Source of the DNA: Fructobacillus parabroussonetiae
GTDB lineage: Bacteria; Bacillota; Bacilli; Lactobacillales; Lactobacillaceae
DNA length: 64,000 nt
Reading direction: 5' to 3'
Assembly: GCF_018437265.1 (NCBI RefSeq)
Contig: NZ_JAAMFL010000002.1
Location: forward strand, 1 to 64,000
In this document: positions 4,441 through 13,679 of the stretch, one piece after another
How the letters are laid out: every line of letters starts with the position of its first letter
How positions within the stretch are numbered: position 1 is the stretch's first letter
Translations under genes and position numbers: made by a program
The notes under the pieces: generated by a model
The model's input: only the letters and a program-made list of their open reading frames with translations
The model's database searches: none
Told to the model about the DNA's origin: nothing

Positions 4441-5343
4441 ATGATTGAACAATACGTTAAAACAATTCAGATAAATCAAGCGGCTGCAGGCCTAAGCGTG
4501 AAGGCTTATTTGACGAACTGCTTTCTTTCCAAGCAGATGCGTGGAAAGATCCGTCAGCAAAGAGGGATTCGTGTCAATGGGCAGCGGCAGTCAACGGCCT
4601 ACACATTGAGGGCTGGCGATTACCTGACTTTGACGGTCGCCTTAGACAGTGAGAATGGGCAAGGACCCTACCCGGCAAATCCCGATATAGTCGTTGCCGT
4701 TGTTTTTGAAAACGAGGATTTTTTGCTAGTGAACAAGGCTGCCGGCATGAAAATGCACCCCCATTCGCCAAGGGAAACGGACACGTTATTAAACGGCGCC
4801 CAGGCTTATTTGGATCAACATCAGAGTCAATCCTTAGGCCGTGCAGCAAAGGCCTATATGACCCACCGATTGGACAGGGGGACGTCTGGTTTAGTCTTAG
4901 TTGGAAAGAATCCCTTAGTCGTTTCCATCCTTAATCGACAAATTAAAGAAAAAATAGTGGTTAAACAATATTTGGCTAGGGTTTCCGGTTTTTTTAAAGA
5001 AAGGAAGGGGGCCTTTACGCAGGCAATCGGCCCATCAAAAGAGAACCCCTACCGGCAAAGGGTCTGTTCGATTGAAGCCGGTGGCTTGCCCGCCAGGACG
5101 CAGTATGAGGTCTTAGCAGAGAATGAAGAAAAAGGGGAAAGTCTTGTCCAGCTCGACCTTTTGACAGGGCGGATGCACCAACTCCGAGTTCATTTAGCCC
5201 ATGCCGGTCACCCCATTCTCGGTGATGATTGGTATGGGGGCAAAAAAGCATCTCGACTCTTCCTGCAGTCAACGAAATTATGCTTAAAAATGCCATGGAC
5301 AATGGAAGAACGAAGTTTTCAGCTCAATGAAAATTGGCAATAA
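4441..5343 (+). CDS. RluA-family rRNA pseudouridine synthase
   Basis: 300 residues. The catalytic motif HRLDRGTSGLVL is present with the essential Asp at about residue 145, and the late motif GRMHQLRVHL is typical of the RluA/RluD branch. The N-terminal ~80 residues resemble an S4-like RNA-binding segment (QQRGIRVNGQ). It isomerises specific uridines in rRNA. The start is not well supported: GAAAG abuts the ATG and the upstream terminator lies just before it, so a leaderless or read-through transcript is possible. The next in-frame Met would cut into the S4-like part, so I keep 4441. Confidence 0.88.
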   Translation: MIEQYVKTIQINQAAAGLSVKAYLTNCFLSKQMRGKIRQQRGIRVNGQRQSTAYTLRAGDYLTLTVALDSENGQGPYPANPDIVVAVVFENEDFLLVNKAAGMKMHPHSPRETDTLLNGAQAYLDQHQSQSLGRAAKAYMTHRLDRGTSGLVLVGKNPLVVSILNRQIKEKIVVKQYLARVSGFFKERKGAFTQAIGPSKENPYRQRVCSIEAGGLPARTQYEVLAENEEKGESLVQLDLLTGRMHQLRVHLAHAGHPILGDDWYGGKKASRLFLQSTKLCLKMPWTMEERSFQLNENWQ

Positions 5344-5370
5344 AAAAAACACCCACACGGGTGTTTTTTT
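5342..5370. terminator. Bidirectional terminator
   Basis: Short GC stem CACCC/GGGTG with ACAC loop, flanked by an A-run and a T-run. It serves the pseudouridine synthase gene and the convergent aquaporin gene. Confidence 0.85.
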
Positions 5371-5379
5371 GTGAAGCGC

Positions 5380-6099
5380 TTAAGCAGCTGCTTCGTCGTC
5401 CTTTGCGTAGTACTTAACAGCCAAACCAGCCAATGCAGCAGCCAGAATTTCAATCAAGAGGAAGAACCAAAGGTGTGCAGAGCCACCCAAGCCGTTCATG
5501 ATGGCTGGTGCCAATACACGGGCAGGGTTAAGCAACCCACCAGTCAATGGGTAGGCAACGAAGGTTGAGACAGTCAAGCCCAAACCAGCGATAACTGGTG
5601 CTTGCTTTGGCATCTTTTGGAAAGCCAAAACCGTGACAAAGACAAGGAAGAACGTGAAGACGGCTTCGATTGTCAAAGCAACGGGTAGTGAAGTGGCGGA
5701 AGTTGCTGGTTGCAAGGTTTCATAGATCTTTGAAGCTGAAACAGATGAGGTTGATCCCGTTGAAGAAGCAGACATCTGTGAGTTAATAACAGGAATCATA
5801 GTTGAAACGGCGAGGAAGAGACCAACAACGGCACCGATTACCTGTGACAACAGGTAGAAGCCGAAAGTCTTCCAAGTGATTTGCTTGTTCAAAGCAGCTG
5901 CTAATGAAACAGCTGGGTTGAAGTGGCCGCCGTCAGCAAATGGTCCGAAGACAAACATCATCAAGACGAGGCTAAGGCCCAAGATGGCGATTTGGTCAAA
6001 CATTTGGCCAACTTGGAAAGTCGAAACGTAAACCAAGGCCACCGTTGAAAAAATGACCAAGAAAGCCGTTCCGAATGATTCTGAGAAATACTTGCGCAT
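5380..6099 (-). CDS. MIP-family aquaporin / glycerol facilitator
   Basis: 239 residues with six hydrophobic segments and both signature half-helix boxes: HFNPAVSLA and LLNPARVLAP. These form the pore of aquaporins. The residue after the second NPAR is Val, not the Asp usual in GlpF, which argues for a water-type (or lactate-permeable) channel over a glycerol channel, but selectivity is not certain. A Ser/Thr-rich loop lies at about residues 110-130. The AAAGGAG ribosome site is buried in a long inverted repeat (see 6107-6159), suggesting translational or read-through control. It lies downstream of copB on the same strand. Confidence 0.9.
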   Translation of the reverse strand: MRKYFSESFGTAFLVIFSTVALVYVSTFQVGQMFDQIAILGLSLVLMMFVFGPFADGGHFNPAVSLAAALNKQITWKTFGFYLLSQVIGAVVGLFLAVSTMIPVINSQMSASSTGSTSSVSASKIYETLQPATSATSLPVALTIEAVFTFFLVFVTVLAFQKMPKQAPVIAGLGLTVSTFVAYPLTGGLLNPARVLAPAIMNGLGGSAHLWFFLLIEILAAALAGLAVKYYAKDDEAAA

Positions 6100-6106
6100 A
6101 AAAAAA

Positions 6107-6159
6107 GCTCCTTTATTCTTCTGTACAATACTCTATTGTACCCTTCTTAGAATAAAGGA
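6107..6159 (-). promoter_or_regulatory. Nested inverted repeat over the aquaporin ribosome site
   Basis: Outer arms of 11 bp (6109-6119 and 6149-6159) and inner arms of 8 bp (6123-6130 and 6134-6141, GTACAATA with its complement) are both perfect. In the aquaporin mRNA the 3' outer arm contains AAAGGA, the Shine-Dalgarno core, so the folded form hides it. A seven-base U-run follows the stem, so the same structure could also end transcripts arriving from copB. The inner palindrome could alternatively be a protein operator. Confidence 0.6.
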
Positions 6160-6194
6160 ACTTTAAAATGTTTGCTCTTAAGAAAATTTTTACT

Positions 6195-8495
6195 TTATTT
6201 GTGTAAGAGCATGGCGTTTCCAGCAACAATTAAGGTTGAAAGCGACATGACAATGGCACCAATCATAGGGTTTAAGACAATGCCAGCAAAGGCAAAGATA
6301 CCAGCCGCTGTTGGAATGGCCAAAATGTTATAGCCAGCACCCCACCAAAGATTTTGCAATTCTTTGCTGTTGGCGTTGTGAGCCAAGGTAATCAAATCGA
6401 TAATCTTTGGTAGTGATGTTGAAATCAAGACGGCATCGGCAGAAGCTTGCGCAACATCAGTACCGGCACCGATCGCAACGGAAAGATCAGCCTGTGCCAA
6501 TGCGGGCGCATCGTTGATTCCATCACCAATCATCAGGGTCTTACCCTTTTGCTGGTATTGCTTGACTAAGTCAATTTTGTCTTCAGGCGAAACCTGTGAC
6601 TTGATTTCCTTAATACCAAGTTCTTCTGCGACTTTGTTAGCGGTTTGCTCACCATCACCGGTGACCATTACAGGGGTAATGCCAAGGTCGAGCAAGGACT
6701 TAACGAAGTCCTTAGCAGATGGCTTCAACGAATCACCCAATGAAATGGCGGCAAGCACTTGTTTATCTTGCACTAAGTATGAGACAGAACCATCGGAATT
6801 CATTGGGGTAAAGTCGATCTTTTCCTGATTCAAGTAACGGCTGTTGACGACTTGGTAGTGACTGCCATCGATATCACCTTGGATACCAGCCCCTTTGATG
6901 GTTTGAACGTTTTTGGCTTCCTTAGGAGAAAGCTTCTCGTTTTCTGCCTTTTCGACAATCGCCTTTGCTAATGGGTGAGAAGAAGAGCTTTCTAGTCCGG
7001 CCATAATTGCTAAGGCGTCTTTTTCATCGATTTTATCGGCCGCTAATTTCTGAACGGCAAAGTGACCGTTGGTCAAGGTACCGGTCTTATCCATCAAGGC
7101 GTAATCGAGGTGCTTAGCTTGCAAGACAGCGCCGTGTTTTTTGATCAAAATACCATCTTTGGCTGCAATTGCCTTGGTCCGTTGGATAACCAAAGGAATC
7201 GCCAGGCCCAATGCATGAGGGCAGGCAATGATCAAAGTCGTGACCGCCGTGTTGAAGGCTTCGGCCGGTCCAGAAATGAAGGTCCAGACAATCAAGGCCA
7301 GAAGCGCTGCCGTCAAACCAACCCAGAAGAGCCAGCCGGCGACTTTGTTGGCCAATGATTCAGCCTTTGAAGAGGATTGTTCCGTTTGGTTCAAGGTGTC
7401 TTTCAAGTGACCGATGAAGGAATCGTTTCCAACCGCTTGGACTTTAACGAGTAAGGTTCCATCATCGTTGATTGTTCCACCGATGACTTTGGCATCCTTT
7501 TCCTTCTTAACTGGCTTTGACTCACCAGTCATCAACGATTCATCGACACGGGAAGAACCTTCCAAAACGACACCATCGGCAGGGAATGATTCACCCGCCT
7601 GTACTTGCACTTCCATGTCGGGCTTCAAAGAAGCGACGGGCATATCCATAAAGGAATCGCCATGTTTAACGTGTGCGGTCTGAGGAGTCAACTTTGACAA
7701 CTCGGACGTTGCGTTACCGGCTTTCATCGTTGCTTCCATTTCGATGACGTGGCCAAGTAGCATAATGACAACCAGGCTCGCAAATTCAAAGAAGTAATCC
7801 ATCGTCTTTTGACCAAAGAAGGTGTTGGCGATGAATGAGTAAATTGAAACCCAGAAGGTCACAATCAAGCCCATTGAAATCAAGGACATCATGGCGGGCT
7901 TTTTACTCTTTAATTCAGATTTTGCACCATCAAAGAAGGGCTTGGTTCCAATGACGTACATGGCAGCCGCCAAAATAACGGTCAACCAATTTGAACCAGG
8001 GAATGTCAACGTAAAGGGCAAGTCAACACCCATGAAGGGTGTGATGAAGATGATTGGCACTAAGAGGACAAGTGTCCACCAGAAGCGTTTCTTCATATCC
8101 CCATGGTTCATACCCATGTGCATACCGCCCATGCCAGCCATGTTCATACCAGACATATCGTGGCCCATGTTCATGTGATCCATACCCGACATGTTCATGT
8201 GATCCATCTTCGAATGGTCCATTTTGTTGTGATCCATGCCCGACATGTCCATGTGGTCCATCTTCGAATGGTCCATTTTGTCATGATCCGTGCCCGACAT
8301 GTCCATATGGTCCATCTTTGAATGATCCATTTTATCGTGATTCATGCCACTGTCACACTTGTCGCAGTGCTTCATCTTCGAGTGATCCATGTCACCCATC
8401 TTGTCATGGTCCATGTCATCATGGTTCATCTTGCTGTGATCCATGTGCGACATATCCATGTTGCCCATGGATTGCTTCTCTTTATCCTCAGCCAT
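6195..8495 (-). CDS. copB: CopB-type copper-translocating P1B ATPase with Met/His/Asp-rich N-terminus
   Basis: 766 residues. Motif CPH in ACPHALGLAIP (about residue 425) marks the CopB (P1B-3) subgroup. The phosphorylation motif DKTGTLT is near residue 468, TGES marks the actuator domain and GDGINDAPALA the hinge. Eight membrane segments are expected. It exports copper (or silver) using ATP. The first ~135 residues are a metal-binding tail made of M-D-H-S-K type units, including three 18-residue tandem repeats (residues 54-107) and one CxxC (residues 44-47). A strong AAAGGAG site precedes the ATG. No CopY or CopZ gene is adjacent, and I found no clear CopY box. Confidence 0.93.
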   Translation of the reverse strand: MAEDKEKQSMGNMDMSHMDHSKMNHDDMDHDKMGDMDHSKMKHCDKCDSGMNHDKMDHSKMDHMDMSGTDHDKMDHSKMDHMDMSGMDHNKMDHSKMDHMNMSGMDHMNMGHDMSGMNMAGMGGMHMGMNHGDMKKRFWWTLVLLVPIIFITPFMGVDLPFTLTFPGSNWLTVILAAAMYVIGTKPFFDGAKSELKSKKPAMMSLISMGLIVTFWVSIYSFIANTFFGQKTMDYFFEFASLVVIMLLGHVIEMEATMKAGNATSELSKLTPQTAHVKHGDSFMDMPVASLKPDMEVQVQAGESFPADGVVLEGSSRVDESLMTGESKPVKKEKDAKVIGGTINDDGTLLVKVQAVGNDSFIGHLKDTLNQTEQSSSKAESLANKVAGWLFWVGLTAALLALIVWTFISGPAEAFNTAVTTLIIACPHALGLAIPLVIQRTKAIAAKDGILIKKHGAVLQAKHLDYALMDKTGTLTNGHFAVQKLAADKIDEKDALAIMAGLESSSSHPLAKAIVEKAENEKLSPKEAKNVQTIKGAGIQGDIDGSHYQVVNSRYLNQEKIDFTPMNSDGSVSYLVQDKQVLAAISLGDSLKPSAKDFVKSLLDLGITPVMVTGDGEQTANKVAEELGIKEIKSQVSPEDKIDLVKQYQQKGKTLMIGDGINDAPALAQADLSVAIGAGTDVAQASADAVLISTSLPKIIDLITLAHNANSKELQNLWWGAGYNILAIPTAAGIFAFAGIVLNPMIGAIVMSLSTLIVAGNAMLLHK
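8175..8336 (-). repeat. Three 54-bp tandem repeats inside copB
   Basis: The three units encode residues 54-71, 72-89 and 90-107, each of the form DKMDHSKMDHMDMSGxDH with single substitutions. Near identity at the base level suggests recent duplication and likely copy-number variation between strains. Confidence 0.85.
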
Positions 8496-13413: not shown

Positions 13414-13679
13414 CAAGTTAATAATAAAAAACGTTGTTGAGGAAGTAGTAGTCTTCTTTTTACCGGTCAGTGAAGTGTTGGTTAGTGTGAAACACAGGGT
13501 AAGATTAGACGAACGTCGCCTCATGGTGCATGCGATGAAAACCATGCTGGGTGCTCCCATTAAAGAGCTGACGATTAGTAGTTTTGATCGAATAATGAGA
13601 GGTGTTCTTTTTGAGCACAATCAAGGTGGTACCGCGTGCAAACGTCCTTTAGTCAAATAGACTAAAGGGCGTTTTTTTA
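13414..13679 (+). promoter_or_regulatory. T-box riboswitch
   Basis: The T-box sequence AAGGTGGTACCGCG (13623-13636) is followed by an intrinsic terminator with 13-bp arms (ACGTCCTTTAGTC type, 13642-13672) and a T-run. Upstream lies a Stem I region with GAGGAAGTAGTAG on the 5' side and GAACGTCGCC on the 3' side. GAGG (13439-13442) pairs with CCTC (13519-13522), leaving GAAC-GTC-G in the specifier loop. GTC (valine) followed by a purine is my best specifier; CGT (arginine) is the alternative. Uncharged tRNA would favour antitermination and transporter expression. Confidence 0.9.

Follow-up and report, generated by a model that had tools for sequence, protein, structure and literature searches.

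A conserved hairpin between copB and an aquaporin gene of Fructobacillus: a candidate leaky terminator and translation block for read-through RNA

Mobile elements use an RNA fold-back trick: in the leaders of IS10-type transposases, transcripts that read in from elsewhere form a fold covering the ribosome site. The trick is also known from phage T4. The longer early transcripts of its lysozyme gene, gene e, fold over the Shine-Dalgarno (SD) sequence, and the late transcripts, which start near the ribosome site and are devoid of the 5′ portion, are translated, as set out in the accessible sections of PMC3014915; the I-TevI leader works similarly, according to the accessible part of PMC2988022. 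The accessible sections of PMC8450116 treat an antisense RNA and a leader that hides the ribosome-binding site, not read-through. Here we describe a hairpin in the gap between a copB-like gene and an aquaporin gene of Fructobacillus parabroussonetiae. By prediction its SD is hidden, as in gene e and I-TevI, in upstream-initiated transcripts; own-promoter transcripts, if the putative promoter in its loop is used, would lack the 5′ part. We propose, with a probability of about 0.62, that this hairpin joins a leaky copB terminator to a fold-back that occludes the SD and bears the aquaporin promoter in its loop, and that it insulates the aquaporin gene from copB transcription. From sequence, predicted folding, conservation and synteny, we infer promoter use, termination and translational silencing at the hairpin.

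The hairpin would work like the T4 gene e and I-TevI leaders, a functional likeness for which kinship is neither claimed nor expected. It differs from them in preceding a bacterial chromosomal gene, in having a sigma-70-like −10 element instead of a T4 late promoter, and in the U-tract directly after its 3′ arm, which makes it terminator-like too. Unlike the IS10-type leaders, it belongs to a channel gene, with no mobile element seen and with a putative promoter in its loop. If our proposal is true, this is a chromosomal, genus-wide case of the trick known from phage T4, in which a single hairpin of ∼70 bases ends transcription, blocks translation and carries a promoter, and a small genome could keep two unrelated neighbors apart in this way. 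It would also caution against taking every SD-covering hairpin for a switch of the mRNA from which the protein is made. A literature search, with most subscription papers outside its reach, returned none on this leader; Fructobacillus and aquaporin co-occurred in a review on selenium.

The window analyzed here is the whole 64,000-nucleotide stretch of F. parabroussonetiae DNA. The two genes lie in it as follows.

6195 to 8495, minus strand: gene for a copper-translocating P-type ATPase (copB-like), the upstream gene; TIGR01511 match of 550.2 bits against a cut-off of 397
5380 to 6099, minus strand: gene for an aquaporin (MIP-family channel) of 239 amino acids, the downstream gene; open reading frame with a PF00230 match

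An earlier note on this DNA had named the genes copB and aquaporin from the letters alone. The aquaporin product matched the MIP model PF00230 with an E value of 1.3e-22 and 81.1 bits (cut-off 25), and also matched the NCBIfam aquaporin Z and MIP models with scores below their cut-offs. The nearest named records of the aquaporin are those of Fructobacillus papyrifericola (94% identity), F. papyriferae (83%) and F. ficulneus (63%); a Bacteroides locus (29%) came fourth in the identity scan. The gap from copB to the aquaporin gene is 95 nt in the window. An aquaporin gene is present in all 13 Fructobacillus genomes examined, the window's own included; the order copB, gap, aquaporin is found in each of the 13 species, with gaps of 86 to 101 nt and, upstream of aquaporin, an open frame with a copB-like C terminus. 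The N terminus of the window's copB product (8090 to 8495) consists of ∼130 residues of Met/His/Asp-rich repeats (for example, DHSKMDHMDMSGM), which probably bind metal.

The gap and the adjoining start region hold these elements.

6149 to 6164, minus strand: 5′ (left) arm, AAAGTTCCTTTATTCT, from fold and conservation
6123 to 6141, no strand assigned: inner palindrome, GTACAATAGAGTATTGTAC, an 8-bp helix as RNA, from the sequence
6104 to 6119, minus strand: 3′ (right) arm, AGAATAAAGGAGCTTT, from fold and alignment counts
6108 to 6114, minus strand: SD of aquaporin, AAAGGAG, within the 3′ arm; present in 13/13 species
6100 to 6106, minus strand: U7 tract, the spacer between SD and start codon, terminator-like

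The earlier note had described a 51-nt structure with 19 perfect pairs, AAAGGA in its 3′ arm and seven U residues after it, a description that proved exact for 6109 to 6159 on the minus strand. An 11-bp part (TCCTTTATTCT/AGAATAAAGGA, 6149 to 6159 with 6109 to 6119) and an 8-bp inner helix (GTACAATA/TATTGTAC, 6134 to 6141 with 6123 to 6130) make up the 19 canonical pairs. The outer helix is extended by five basal pairs, AAAGT/GCTTT, one of them G·U and three of them A-U pairs that use the first three U residues of the U-tract, and the full hairpin (6104 to 6164) thus has an outer helix of 16 bp and an inner helix of 8 bp. The aquaporin start codon, ATG at 6097 to 6099, stands right after U7. 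The predicted RNA fold of 6095 to 6170 has an energy of −25.5 kcal/mol compared to a mean of −9.75 (SD 2.54) for shuffled sequences (z −6.2), and none of 200 shuffles folded as well; the hairpin on the minus strand is real and non-random. A plus-strand reading, in which AAAGGA would serve a 12-codon ORF from ATG 6168, was rejected: an opposite-strand SD-to-ATG arrangement is found in only two of the 13 genomes (G000 and G011), and only three have an opposite-strand ATG among the gap's first 60 nt.

Alignment A1 of the gap has 13 rows, of which 12 are distinct (the row of species L011 stands one column off in the left arm), and reveals four conserved blocks, the 5′ arm, GTAYAAT, the SD and the U-tract. 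Mean pairwise identities over 12 species, with L017, the deepest branch, left out, are 0.86 for the basal 11 nt of the left arm, 0.65 for its apical part and 0.50 just upstream of it, followed by 0.55 for the spacer, 0.92 for GTAYAAT, 0.45 for the inner loop, 0.68 for the inner right arm, 0.52 for the apical right arm, 1.0 for the SD and 0.96 for the C+U tract; for comparison, the final 90 bases of the copB coding region gave 0.75. The SD is kept in 13/13 species, and the U-tract and the outer helix in 12/13 each. L017 has lost the U-tract and the bulk of its left arm and keeps a short TCCTTT/AAAGGA helix; the outer helix of L011 has two mismatches. The sequence AAAGGAGCTTTTTT has 13 occurrences in 12 of the 13 genomes, 12 of them at aquaporin.

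The earlier note had named conservation of pairing among relatives as a check. Across A1, 89.1% of the cells of the whole structure are paired (86.8% in the outer helix, 94.0% in the inner helix), compared to 39.8 to 56.1% when the structure is slid along the alignment. Two adjacent pairs, at columns 21/61 and 22/60, are swapped (A-U for U-A and U-A for A-U, respectively) between the window's 7-species clade and its relatives, in 5 and 4 of the 13 rows. Nine cells are doubly changed, a number reached by 3 of 500 shuffles. The number of doubly changed pairs, at four, lies within the shuffle range (reached by 196/500), and further pair types showed no excess over shuffles either (268/500). Judged on the aquaporin gene tree, five of whose 12 inner forks are open, the two-pair swap may have happened just once.

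The GTAYAAT block lies in the hairpin loop and suggests a promoter there.

6135 to 6140, minus strand: TACAAT, a putative −10 element in the hairpin loop and part of the block GTAYAAT, which 13/13 species have
6128 (about ±2), minus strand: predicted transcription start, the 7th base after the −10 element, giving a 29-nt 5′ UTR without the left arm

The −10 element reads TATAAT in six species and TACAAT in seven. Because it has no recognizable −35 element and a consensus promoter scan of the window listed nothing at this place, we infer, rather than observe, that the aquaporin gene uses this promoter. The same rule of 7 nt from the −10 element predicts leaders of 28 to 32 nt in 13/13 species; in Streptococcus agalactiae, leaders of 15 to 35 nt precede roughly half the coding transcription units, according to the accessible part of PMC4448216. 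Since the predicted start lies within the inner palindrome, the 5′ arm would be absent from the mRNA made by the aquaporin promoter, and only copB read-through RNA would form the full hairpin. With read-through RNA modeled as 150 nt upstream plus 40 nt of coding sequence, the predicted pairing of the SD is 0.84 to 1.00 in 13/13 species, as in a T4 gene e-type arrangement, compared to 0.26 to 0.85 in own-promoter RNA from the central start guess. The corresponding values in the window are 1.0 and 0.35; the contrast is small in L011 (0.84 versus 0.76) and L012 (1.0 versus 0.85).

The earlier note had also taken the hairpin for a cis-acting RNA switch, perhaps a thermosensor or an osmotic device, and had stated that a transcription start inside the inner palindrome would tell against this. 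The −10-like block, present in 13/13 species, puts the predicted start there, at position 6128 of the window. ViennaRNA folding of the window RNA at 11 temperatures predicted the SD to be 1.0 paired from 15 to 55 °C, 0.99 paired at 60 to 65 °C and still 98% paired at 70 °C. An RNA thermometer is disfavored, as the SD helix is not predicted to melt in the physiological range. More broadly, a leader of a long aquaporin mRNA that responds to temperature, salt or a ligand would draw on the fact that a 24-bp structure covers the SD, and would have to be reconciled with a predicted start within the hairpin and with a loop in which only GTAYAAT and, to some extent, the inner right arm are constant, and which so offers no aptamer-like block. 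The covariance models of Rfam 15 gave no match in 5950 to 6300 up to an E value of 1. We regard such a condition-responsive switch as very unlikely. Elsewhere in the window, at 13425 to 13652 on the plus strand, lies a T-box leader (96.4 bits; cut-off 93).

The inner palindrome lends itself to another reading, which the earlier note had offered as an alternative, namely that its 19 bp are an operator over the −10 element and start of aquaporin, bound by a dimeric repressor. The palindrome does overlie the putative −10 element, and in the window's 7-species clade both 7-nt arms are invariant while the 5-nt loop between them varies. Against this, perfect DNA symmetry is confined to that clade; the other six species are without it, the RNA pairing persisting partly via G·U. 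We searched the genome for further copies and found none with fewer than three mismatches; three other sites have three mismatches each, and a control pattern also gave three. An operator regulon was rejected accordingly, the palindrome not being found at other promoters of the genome, and an operator at the aquaporin promoter itself appears very doubtful to us.

The position of the outer stem directly before the U-tract bears on termination. In the window, U7 follows a GC-closed stem, and a tract of U6 to U8 is found in 12/13 species. A stable stem followed by U6 to U8 is what the hairpin shares with intrinsic (Rho-independent) terminators, from which it differs in its AU-rich stem, in a 29-nt loop that carries both an inner helix and a putative promoter, and in the start codon immediately after the U-tract. 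With 4 G-C among 16 pairs and a loop of this length, it lacks the GC-rich stem and short loop of a classic terminator, and it was not listed by a terminator scan of the window that covered loops of 3 to 8 nt only. A terminator score of the d'Aubenton-Carafa/Lesnik type was positive in seven of the 13 species (up to 10.2) and lay between −0.3 and −6.4 in five; none was obtained for L017. Shuffling the window's gap 40 times never gave a score as high as zero (best −19.5), and a conventional-looking terminator between aquaporin and the converging gene (window 5330 to 5400) scored 20. The scores of the hairpin and U-tract fit a weak or leaky terminator. In addition, translation does not need a U-tract in the spacer before the start codon, and the conservation of one there speaks for a terminator. 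The earlier note's proposal that the structure blocks translation, ends transcription from copB, or both, thus finds support at the sequence level, in these scores and in the retention of SD, U-tract and outer helix across the genus.

These same data raise the question of whether the hairpin is a copB terminator and nothing else, its overlap with the SD a by-product of a compact gap and without meaningful effect on translation. The C+U tract conserved in the SD-to-ATG spacer and the terminator scores, more than half of them positive and, in 12/13 species, much higher than for shuffled versions of the window's gap, argue for this, whereas the GC-poor stem and the long loop argue against it. Moreover, L017, which has no U-tract, retains the TCCTTT/AAAGGA pairing, with its SD predicted to be 95% paired in read-through RNA, and the pairing itself entails that the SD is occluded, selected for or not. 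We consider a terminator alone unlikely.

Under the reading that we prefer, leaky terminator plus fold-back, RNA polymerase coming from copB would transcribe both arms, and the long AU-rich hairpin with U6 to U8 would serve copB as an intrinsic terminator, though a leaky one. In any RNA that reads past it, the hairpin would sequester the aquaporin SD, and this read-through mRNA would be poorly translated. Transcripts from the loop promoter, with its GTAYAAT −10 element, would start past the 5′ arm, could not form the outer helix and would be translatable. The left arm begins ∼22 to 37 nt after the copB stop codon in the 12 species that have the arm, beyond the usual cover of a terminating ribosome. 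Translational coupling to copB was rejected, given this distance and short gap ORFs that differ between species. A further step would be negative coupling, in which copper-induced copB expression sends escaping polymerases across the aquaporin promoter, yielding untranslatable mRNA and hence less channel under copper stress. We hold this to be a long shot; if true, it would be a bacterial counterpart, kept genus-wide, of what in yeast are termed long undecoded transcript isoforms.

Outside the genus, a draw of 251 family genomes gave 16 aquaporin matches at E 1e-40, 12 of them from Fructobacillus. The other four loci (L023 to L026, from two genera) have a P-type ATPase-like frame upstream, recognized by eye; the hairpin is absent from all four and their gap sequences differ. 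Two of them, L025 and L026, have TATAAT with a 28-nt leader. Because these loci keep the gene pair without the hairpin, and two of them keep a TATAAT, the P-type ATPase/aquaporin pair looks older than the hairpin, as perhaps does the place of the promoter. The SD is predicted to be partly hidden at these loci, with read-through pairing of 0.85, 0.68, 0.43 and 0.43 compared to 0.42, 0.61, 0.38 and 0.39 in the short RNA, hardly above the latter in three of the four, and the folds of the regions have z values of −2.0, −0.7, −1.9 and −3.1.

Within the genome, we sampled 464 kb out of 1,216 kb, made up of the window and 20 further stretches of 20 kb each, which gave 295 genes with an SD of at least five letters. 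Aquaporin ranked second of the 295 for a helix over the SD and first of the 54 genes in the window, and it alone among the 295 has a T-run of at least six between SD and start codon. A perfect 6-nt anti-SD 20 to 56 nt upstream was found in 2/295 genes versus 3.9 expected, and a general genome design is therefore rejected for this sample; the hairpin design is exceptional, not general, among the genes sampled. Across the 13 genomes, the pattern TCCTTT...AAAGGA...ATG had 126 matches compared to 47 for a permuted control, overlaps counted, and many of these, judged by eye, belong to a single multicopy leader or to divergent genes whose SDs are complementary.

The multicopy leader is an inverted repeat, TCCTTTA..TACTGGCA..TGCCTAGTAAATTGAAAGGAG, between diverging ATGs in 9 of the 13 Fructobacillus genomes (G001 C1:1389807-1389886; G006 C43:983-1062, C44:85549-85625 and C45:3672-3748; and others). 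Its SD can pair with the upstream arm, and it looks like a repeat or the leader of an insertion element. The leader of a pyrH-like gene, named by eye from its protein start (L055, G000 C10:44886-44927), has TCCTTT, TATAAT and AAAGGAG in the same order as aquaporin, with a 6-bp stem, a pattern that recurs with small changes in 6/13 genomes. Finally, a long helix over the SD at L073 16171-16280, with 11 on the SD-helix scale the third of the 295, is a candidate leader element; the gene downstream of it encodes a hydrophobic protein that by eye is transporter-like.
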